Shown piece after piece: positions 24,589 through 25,504 of a stretch of 40,808 bases of DNA. How positions within the stretch are numbered: position 1 is the first letter of the stretch; the number at the start of each line of letters is the position of its first letter. The notes under the pieces are model-generated. The model was not told the DNA's origin, did no database searches, and was given only the letters and a program-made list of their open reading frames with translations. The stretch lies in assembly GCA_018819285.1 (NCBI GenBank), contig JAHJQM010000052.1:1-40808 (forward strand), read 5' to 3'. Made by a program: the position numbers and the translations under genes. This DNA is from Candidatus Omnitrophota bacterium. GTDB lineage: Bacteria; Omnitrophota; Gorgyraeia; Gorgyraeales; Gorgyraeaceae.

Positions 24589-24664
24589 GCCCCCATAGCT
24601 CAGCTGGTAGAGCACCTGACTCTTAATCAGGGCGTCACAGGTTCGAACCCTGTTGGGGGTACCA
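24589..24664 (+). tRNA. tRNA-Lys (anticodon CTT)
   Basis: Full cloverleaf: acceptor GCCCCCA/TGGGGGT, anticodon loop CTCTTAA, T-arm ACAGG/CCTGT with loop TTCGAAC, discriminator A, encoded CCA. Its last 21 nt (24644-24664) recur exactly at 24790-24810 and 24994-25014. Confidence 0.97.
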
Positions 24665-24810
24665 CAATATTATTCGGGCTACAGGGTTCGAATAGAGCTC
24701 TGCGCCGAGCGAAGCGAGGAAAAGTCCGCCAAGAATATTGGCGGACGACAGCAGAGCGAATGGCCGACTTTGCCCGAAGGGCAAAGCGCCGAACCCTGTT
24801 GGGGGTACCA
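24665..24810 (+). mobile_element. tRNA-3'-end-duplicating element, Lys copy 1
   Basis: 146 nt directly after the tRNA-Lys CCA. After a 16-nt spacer it has a 12-nt inverted copy of the tRNA T-loop and T-stem (24681-24692). Next come GCTCTGC, a perfect 9-bp hairpin (GTCCGCCAA/TTGGCGGAC), its partner GCAGAGC, the shared core GCGAATGGCCGA, an 8-bp hairpin (CTTTGCCC/GGGCAAAG) and CGC. It ends in an exact copy of tRNA-Lys positions 56-76. No protein is encoded. Mobility is inferred from the duplicated end. Confidence 0.75.
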
Positions 24811-25014
24811 CAATATTATTCGGGCTACAGGGTTCGAATAGAGCTCTGCGCCGAGCGAAGCGAGACTGCTATTGCGACGAATAGGAGCAATGTTTAGCAG
24901 GCCAGCCGAGATGTGAGGCTGGCAGAAGTCCGCCAAGAATATTGGCGGACGACAGCAGAGCGAATGGCCGACTTTGCCCGAAGGGCAAAGCGCCGAACCC
25001 TGTTGGGGGTACCA
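24811..25014 (+). mobile_element. tRNA-3'-end-duplicating element, Lys copy 2
   Basis: 204 nt, a tandem second copy of the same element. Its first 54 nt and its last part are the same as copy 1, but about 60 extra nt lie in the middle. These hold two further stem-loops: ATTGC/GCAAT enclosed by CTGC/GCAG, and GCCAGCC/GGCTGGC. It ends in the same 21-nt tRNA-Lys 3' end (24994-25014) and carries the inverted T-arm at 24827-24838. Confidence 0.75.
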
Positions 25015-25017
25015 GGG

Positions 25018-25102
25018 GGGCGGATGGCGGAATTGGCAGACGCGCGCGGCTTAGGACCGCGTGGAGCAATCCTTGGAGGTTCAACTCCTCTTCCGCCCAC
25101 CA
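25018..25102 (+). tRNA. tRNA-Leu (anticodon TAG)
   Basis: Class II tRNA of 85 nt with long variable arm: acceptor GGGCGGA/TCCGCCC, anticodon loop CTTAGGA, T-loop TTCAACT, discriminator A, encoded CCA. Its last 21 nt (25082-25102) recur at 25234-25254. Confidence 0.97.
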
Positions 25103-25254
25103 AATGGTTTAAAGATTTTGTTATTTGAAAAAGGGCAGGAGTTGAAGGGACGAGTGGCCGATCTTGAGCGACCGAGGACGTAATGTCCGAGGAAGTGCCG
25201 AGGCCCTCCGGACGAGGCCGAAGCGAAAGGCGCCAACTCCTCTTCCGCCCACCA
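25103..25254 (+). mobile_element. tRNA-3'-end-duplicating element, Leu copy
   Basis: 152 nt after tRNA-Leu. After a 34-nt AT-rich spacer comes AGGAGTTGAA (25137-25146), the exact reverse complement of this tRNA's T-loop and T-stem. The shared core CGAGTGGCCGATCTTGAGCGA follows almost immediately, so the left hairpin domain of the Lys and Gly copies is missing. Hairpins GGAC/GTCC and a GGCC-type stem come next, then GAAGCGAAAGGCGC and an exact copy of tRNA-Leu 3' end. Confidence 0.75.
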
Positions 25255-25275
25255 AATTTTGCTTTGTAAAATTTC

Positions 25276-25350
25276 GCGGGAGTAGCTCAGTGGTAGAGCT
25301 TCTCGTTGCCAACGAGAAGGTCGCGGGTTCGAACCCCGTCTCCCGCTCCA
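25276..25350 (+). tRNA. tRNA-Gly (anticodon GCC)
   Basis: Full cloverleaf: acceptor GCGGGAG/CTCCCGC, anticodon loop TTGCCAA, T-arm GCGGG/CCCGT with loop TTCGAAC, discriminator T, encoded CCA. Its last 21 nt (25330-25350) recur at 25484-25504. Confidence 0.97.
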
Positions 25351-25504
25351 TTAATATTAAGCTAGGGGTTCGAAGAGAGCCCTGTTTTGAAATACGACAA
25401 GTAGGAGTATTCCAAGGGCGAGTGGCCGACCTTGAGCGAAGGCCTGCCCTTTCATAGAAAGGGCAGGGCGAAGCGAAAGGCGCCGAACCCCGTCTCCCGC
25501 TCCA
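25351..25504 (+). mobile_element. tRNA-3'-end-duplicating element, Gly copy
   Basis: 154 nt after tRNA-Gly. A 14-nt spacer is followed by GGGGTTCGAA (25365-25374), the inverted T-arm of this tRNA. A GCCCT/AGGGC stem encloses a hairpin AATAC/GTATT, then come the core GGGCGAGTGGCCGACCTTGA, a long hairpin with 12-bp arms around ATA (GCCTGCCC.../...GGGCAGGGC), GAAGCGAAAGGCGC and the exact 21-nt tRNA-Gly 3' end. Confidence 0.75.

Follow-up and report, generated by a model that had tools for sequence, protein, structure and literature searches.

Elements behind the tRNA genes of the window

The window is the whole stretch of DNA analysed here, 40,808 nucleotides long, and belongs to a Candidatus Omnitrophota genome of 1.56 Mb that is 94% complete. 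Genes for tRNA-Arg, tRNA-Lys, tRNA-Leu and tRNA-Gly were located by ARAGORN at the positions given in the initial annotation, and the last three are followed on the same, forward strand by four small elements. The gene for tRNA-Lys(CTT) (24589-24664; ARAGORN and Rfam tRNA) is an intact host with its C56 at 24644. A trailer (24665-24680), which recurs at 24811-24826 within a 75-nt direct repeat, leads to the arm of Lys element 1 (24681-24690), an inverted repeat complementary to tRNA-Lys 56-65 that forms the left strand of stem P1 in the minimum-energy structure. The P2 stem region (24697-24757; minimum-energy structure and parse) and the conserved 3' core (24757-24789), composed of CGAATGGCCGA, the P3 hairpin and AGCGC, precede a first copy of tRNA-Lys 56-76 (24790-24810) that is identical at 21 of 21 positions. 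Lys element 2 (24811-24993; model match 24827-25004) lies in tandem with the same trailer and arm, has a longer P2 with a GCGAC..AGGAGC hairpin, and ends at a second copy of tRNA-Lys 56-76 (24994-25014). The next host is tRNA-Leu(TAG) (25018-25102, C56 at 25082; ARAGORN), whose element (25137-25233; model match 25135-25244) possesses the arm AGGAGTTG and a core with enlarged P3 and with P2 reduced, so that no normal P2 stem is present, followed by the tRNA-Leu 56-76 copy (25234-25254). Behind tRNA-Gly(GCC) (25276-25350, C56 at 25330; ARAGORN) the element (25365-25483; model match 25363-25494) consists of the arm GGGGTTCG, P2 with its hairpin, CGAGTGGCCGA at 25419-25429, P3 and GGCGC, and the identity of its tRNA-Gly 56-76 copy (25484-25504) extends 2 nt further.

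The four elements claimed in the initial annotation were thus reproduced, with exact 21-nt repeats of the tRNA 3' ends at spacings of 146, 204, 152 and 154 nt, all starting at C56 and all preceded by GCGC. Its second claim, that each element carries near its left end the reverse complement of the T-arm of its own tRNA, was confirmed for 12 nt in Lys, 10 in Leu and 10 in Gly. The core CGARTGGCCGA, described there as shared, has four occurrences in the window and seven genome-wide, against none for the reversed-pattern control. Searches of Rfam 15 returned only tRNA for the window at gathering scores, and only tRNA and chance matches for six loci at E<=1.

Anatomy and predicted fold of the family

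The family comprises non-coding elements of about 100-200 nt with a common order: tRNA gene, native 3' flank, arm, three-way-junction core, and copy of the tRNA 3' end from C56. The flank between tRNA and arm, here called the trailer, is about 5-80 nt long, and the arm is complementary to the tRNA from position 56 to about 64. The core runs through AARNGA, P2, CGARTGGCCGA, P3 and GGCGC directly into the tRNA copy; AARNGA, CGARTGGCCGA and GGCGC are its conserved motifs, and P2 is a variable stem, often capped by the hairpin GCGAC-NNNN-AGGAGC. Minimum-energy folds contain the P1/P2/P3 three-way junction in nearly all elements. Two-sided changes were found at 18 of 27 pairs in an alignment of 18 sequences. 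In an alignment of 105 model matches, which was fitted to the model and leans towards it, 97.3% of the cells were paired and 460 were double-change cells; the controls nonetheless lie far away, with 108 +- 10 double-change cells after shuffling and 35.6-49.5% paired cells after sliding.

Other hairpins were encountered in the same genomes. The GCGAC-NNNN-AGGAGC hairpin is also enriched outside tRNA elements, only in element-bearing genomes (G004, G008, G082 and G261; for example L235:1350-1560, L252 and L258). These occurrences include double-hairpin repeats located right after intrinsic terminators, of the form TTTTTTAATGAG[stem]CGAATTAATCC..GAG[hairpin]GAAGGATC. A further hairpin type starts immediately behind the CCA end of tRNAs and is also located behind right-hand copies (AAATCCGCC..GGCGGATTTGATCCTGAG; CCAAATTTTGCTTTGTAAAATTTCG); it was seen at L237, L260, L045 and L058, and at 25255-25275 of the window.

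Distribution in the genome, the phylum and beyond

A search for the core beside tRNA genes, proposed in the initial annotation, yielded further members both in the genome of the window and in its relatives. Additional elements of this genome lie behind tRNA-Trp, tRNA-Tyr and tRNA-Thr(TGT) and, by inspection, behind tRNA-Thr(CGT) and tRNA-Gly(CCC), so that at least 8 of its approximately 38 tRNA genes bear elements. The strict pattern occurs in 38 of 384 genomes of the class, the reversed pattern in almost none. Among the surveyed genomes, which are fragmented metagenome-assembled genomes (MAGs), the covariance model R1 found members in 87 of the 384 phylum genomes and in 66 of 283 genera, and its matches extend to other families outside the class of the window.

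Pattern matches elsewhere are Candidatus Omnitrophota records. True elements were also found in the bacterial MAGs FK4.bin61 (11 model matches) and JPMR_maxbin.046 (2), whose phylum may or may not be Omnitrophota. The strict scan outside the phylum covered one genome per species, and among the matches listed those in Actinobacteria, Proteobacteria and other phyla were rejected as chance, having neither a nearby tRNA nor the structure. Carriage by viruses was rejected likewise: all six IMG/VR pattern matches are chance hits in GC-rich coding sequence with weak model scores.

The genome with the most copies, G082, has at least 12 model matches, many of them in tandem arrays, at seven tRNAs: Arg(TCG), Arg(ACG), Gly(CCC), Gly(TCC), Thr and two CAT tRNAs. 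Between two of its Arg(TCG) elements lies a block of about 2 kb with flanking inverted repeats of about 40 bp (L199:1700-3750), whose genes appear by eye to encode an XRE-type HTH protein and a RES-domain-like protein, resembling a toxin-antitoxin pair.

Ends follow the adjacent tRNA

Because R1 contains the core and is blind to the identity of the upstream tRNA, its matches provide an unbiased test of the ends. In 86 of 99 matches ARAGORN calls a tRNA no more than 420 nt upstream, in the same orientation. Of these 86, the copy agrees with that tRNA at 10 or more of 12 positions in 82, and for the arm 85 reach at least 7 of 9 positions. At least 17 tRNA isotypes are targeted. The counter-evidence named in the initial annotation, cores with ends unrelated to the adjacent tRNA, was not borne out, since the ends match in 82-85 of the 86. 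Several of the remaining 13 matches lie at contig edges, assembly gaps or uncalled tRNA 3' ends, and a few have no visible tRNA. Uncalled tRNAs at L065:1300-1500, L352 and L374 appear to be split by group I intron-like sequence, which would explain why ARAGORN misses some tRNAs next to elements.

In 71 elements parsed by hand-written rules, complementarity of the arm to the own tRNA exceeds that in every permutation, which excludes chance and extends the T-arm claim beyond the window. The own and permuted values are 0.96 and 0.79 at tRNA position 57, 0.97 and 0.33 at 59, 0.93 and 0.67 at 60, 0.79 and 0.44 at 63, and 0.49 and 0.25 at 64. Tailoring is clear only at positions 57-64, is weak at 65 and falls to background from 66; a full-length terminal inverted repeat of tRNA 56-76 is not supported on this account. 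Nor is the trailer supported as a regular part of the element, for trailers of different tRNAs are near the similarity of shuffled sequence. Exceptions occur, as in G091, where the trailers of L194 and L190 (tRNA-Arg CCT and tRNA-Lys TTT) are 0.89 alike, as if travelling with the element. The clearest exception to the rule on ends is a tandem element at tRNA-Val TAC of G083 (L211:700-1030), with an arm complementary to tRNA 56-73 (17 of 18) but right ends unlike the tRNA.

Spread of cores and the empty site

Mean core identity is 0.70 between elements at different tRNAs of the same genome (0.88 in G082, 0.99 in G177); between genomes it is 0.58-0.61 for the same tRNA and 0.58-0.59 for different tRNAs. 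Cores therefore cluster by genome and ends by local tRNA, indicating that cores spread between tRNAs and that their ends would be re-tailored.

The initial annotation proposed to look for empty sites in close strains, and a clean pair was found at tRNA-Val(GAC), empty in the genome of the window and filled in G006, a sister species of the same genus. When positions 1-55 of the G006 tRNA are joined to the right-hand copy, the result is identical to the empty sequence over the tRNA and the first 16 nt of flank, and the flanks are alignable beyond these 16 nt. Removal of the segment from C56 to GGCGC thus restores the empty site. The element has inserted exactly between U55 and C56, and the original DNA is the right-hand copy with its flank. 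At tRNA-Gly CCC (L266/L267) no element is present in G102, and G023 has a diverged element-like block, missed by the motif, between GGGGCGAG and the tRNA copy.

Duplication of the flank and upkeep of the copy

The flank behind the tRNA is repeated after the right-hand copy in 30 of 117 elements. In 19 of the 30 the arm follows there too, so these are likely tandem copies or their remains; the other 11 have no full arm in this position, and most of them look like simple target duplications. Plain duplications of tRNA 3' end and flank were found at L200 (49 nt from C56), L213, L338 and L075, and at L075 a terminator-like hairpin was duplicated along with the flank. In 81 of the 117 elements a flank repeat is not detectable, partly explained by the other hairpin elements that start right after CCA. 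Of these 81, 65 nevertheless have an exact tRNA copy, suggesting that the copy is kept identical to the tRNA or that a second mode of insertion exists.

At an orthologous Lys insertion the tRNA differs between G000 and G004 (CGAACCCTG) on one side and G008 (CGAATCCTG) on the other, and arm and copy differ in step, which indicates that part of the tailoring arises after insertion. In the Lys element of G010 tRNA and copy have changed, but the arm retains G opposite T. Hairpins are known to be made perfect by template switching between imperfect inverted repeats (PMC8794818, PMC7202029), and this process is a candidate for such concerted change after insertion.

Proposed mechanism

On balance, and with limited confidence, we favour the reading that the family is a trans-mobilised, non-autonomous, non-coding structured DNA element of tRNA genes, inserting at U55/C56 with an arm guided by or rewritten from the T-arm of the target. 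Of the three mechanisms offered in the initial annotation this is closest to the satellite moved in trans, although a dedicated integrase is absent from G082. A more specific version falls just short of probable: the arm would be made from, or guided by, pairing with the target T-arm, and one core could colonise any tRNA gene, re-writing its own end at each jump through a host or novel structure-specific DNA enzyme.

In the proposed sequence of steps, a folded strand with the P1/P2/P3 three-way junction would insert, its 3' end GGCGC being joined to C56, and the other break would fall at the tRNA 3' end or beyond it. Repair synthesis would then restore tRNA 56-76 and a stretch of flank, leaving the tRNA whole and its 3' part duplicated; in apparently recent cases 12-65 nt of native flank are duplicated with it. 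The left arm would pair with the duplicated T-arm as P1. Either the arm guides the element to a similar T-arm and hairpin-templated repair afterwards corrects it to a perfect match, or the arm is copied from the displaced target T-arm during gap filling; in either case hairpin-templated correction may keep it perfect.

Alternative explanations

An RNA or tRNA intermediate, the second mechanism of the initial annotation, could take the form of target-primed retrotransposition. Reverse transcription of an element RNA that terminates in GGCGC would start from a 3'-OH of the bottom strand at C56, and the cDNA would create the arm by snapping back on the T-arm. The fixed 3' junction, variable second edge and duplicated flank are as in target-primed insertion. 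The wobble pairs bear on both sides of this question. The ratio of G.T to A.C is 10 : 10 in P1, 4 : 6 in P3, 5 : 5 in the P2 hairpin and 35 : 4 in P2 (7 : 7, 0 : 1 and 8 : 5 for P1, P3 and P2 in the rule-parsed set), against 36 : 0 in the T-stems of the host tRNAs. These ratios lean towards a DNA-level process, and a purely RNA structure was rejected for the scarcity of wobble pairs in P1, P3 and the P2 hairpin; the excess of G.T in P2 leaves room for an RNA or a tRNA-sense strand form. Terminator-like hairpins between tRNA and element at L075, L082, L348, L352 and L374 argue against a need for co-transcription. Beside tRNA genes that encode no CCA the copies lack it too, which rules out mature tRNA as their template. 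Finally, RVT_1 is found in neither G082 nor G000, both MAGs about 95% complete, and shows no correlation with the elements. Retrotransposition is accordingly considered improbable.

We also rate as unlikely a tyrosine-recombinase satellite, in which P1, folded or circular, would serve as an attP-like site for integration into the tRNA through XerC/D or an integrase acting in trans, comparable with phage and island att sites or attC. Integrases specific for tRNA genes typically cross over in the T-loop and leave a direct repeat that extends to the tRNA 3' end, and the latter trait, with an intact tRNA, is present here; tandem arrays and the newer element located between tRNA and older element in G010 also agree with such a satellite. 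However, crossover with a different tRNA would yield a hybrid, broken tRNA, recent cases duplicate flank beyond the tRNA, and no dif- or attC-like boxes were recognised. The only Phage_integrase genes of G082 (95% complete) are two of 294 and 320 amino acids, the size of XerC/D, and element-free genomes possess the same number and size of XerC/D-type integrase genes. The initial annotation had further proposed a search for co-occurring recombinases or reverse transcriptases, and among the families looked for in G082 no dedicated mover emerged: beside the absence of RVT_1, G082 has no Y1_Tnp despite its many copies, neither G082 nor G000 has Transposase_20 (IS110-family recombinase), and the element itself is non-coding. 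None of a reverse transcriptase, Y1 transposase, dedicated integrase or IS110 enzyme is therefore supported as the mover in G082, and the enzyme supplied in trans would be Xer, some other enzyme of host repair or replication, or a protein not yet recognised.

That the element is a structured RNA or cis element serving the tRNA transcript in processing, quality control or regulation, vertically inherited and co-evolving with the tRNA, is more doubtful still. Strong covariation, the exact preservation of copies and the pairing retained in orthologous Lys elements after a change of the T-arm would all fit it. The third mechanism of the initial annotation, a structured RNA acting in tRNA processing, is nevertheless disfavoured together with it by the patchy and mobile occurrence of the family, with empty sites and tandem arrays, by cores that cluster by genome rather than by tRNA, by the intervening terminators, and by the rarity of wobble pairs in most stems. 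Tandem duplication of tRNA genes followed by decay, which the initial annotation had set against its own reading, would account for copies of tRNA 3' ends and can be dismissed, being refuted by a non-tRNA core common to at least 17 isotypes, the fixed C56 junction and the empty site.

Relation to known elements and significance

The favoured reading, a non-autonomous DNA element moved in trans, may be compared with several known systems. tRNA-integrating islands, IMEs and phage satellites with tyrosine integrases, among them tycheposons and PICMIs, are alike in the T-loop or 3'-end site, the intact tRNA and the direct repeat of the 3' end. They differ in being kilobases long and in usually encoding or borrowing an integrase for one tRNA; the elements described here are far smaller and non-coding, occur at no fewer than 17 isotypes, and have an inverted arm adapted to the tRNA in each case. 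REP/REPIN sequences (RAYT, Y1) and MITEs likewise consist of short structured repeats without coding capacity that have spread through a genome in trans, but their inverted arms are constant and do not vary with the target, they lack the strict tRNA site, and no Y1_Tnp accompanies the elements in G082. Integron cassettes share imperfect attC hairpins with conserved unpaired bases, tandem arrays and a defined crossover base, but not the tRNA-derived arm or the targeting of any tRNA, and no integron integrase was seen in G082. Compared with the G^TTRRRY cleavage site and conserved R boxes of attC, short of a formal attC search, the T-loop GTTC has C where R is needed and the junction falls after GTT. 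The retroviral primer binding site is complementary to a tRNA 3' end and is rewritten to match the tRNA used; it pairs with positions 59-76 rather than 56-64, and the elements, unlike it, insert at the tRNA gene and have no reverse transcriptase found with them. IS110/IS1111 bridge-RNA elements differ by their Transposase_20, absent from G082 and G000.

The view of the initial annotation that no named family has this architecture held in the open-access full-text literature, where no comparable one was found, and in Rfam; subscription papers lay outside this scope and may hold a description. The family is apparently undescribed, and is large in Omnitrophota. Each of the known kinds considered lacks a defining feature that was tested here, and no kind is known in which an element of about 100-200 nt with no gene has ends tailored to its targets, here at least 17 isotypes; the mechanism is a proposal. 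The filled and empty pair and the multi-copy genome make this mechanism directly testable. If it is true, about 100 nt without a gene would target any tRNA gene and tailor their own end, a capacity unknown among described small elements, and would account for a class of repeats left blank by current annotation. Recognition of the target would then proceed through pairing with the tRNA T-arm, and a novel mobilising enzyme would exist in a widespread uncultivated phylum.
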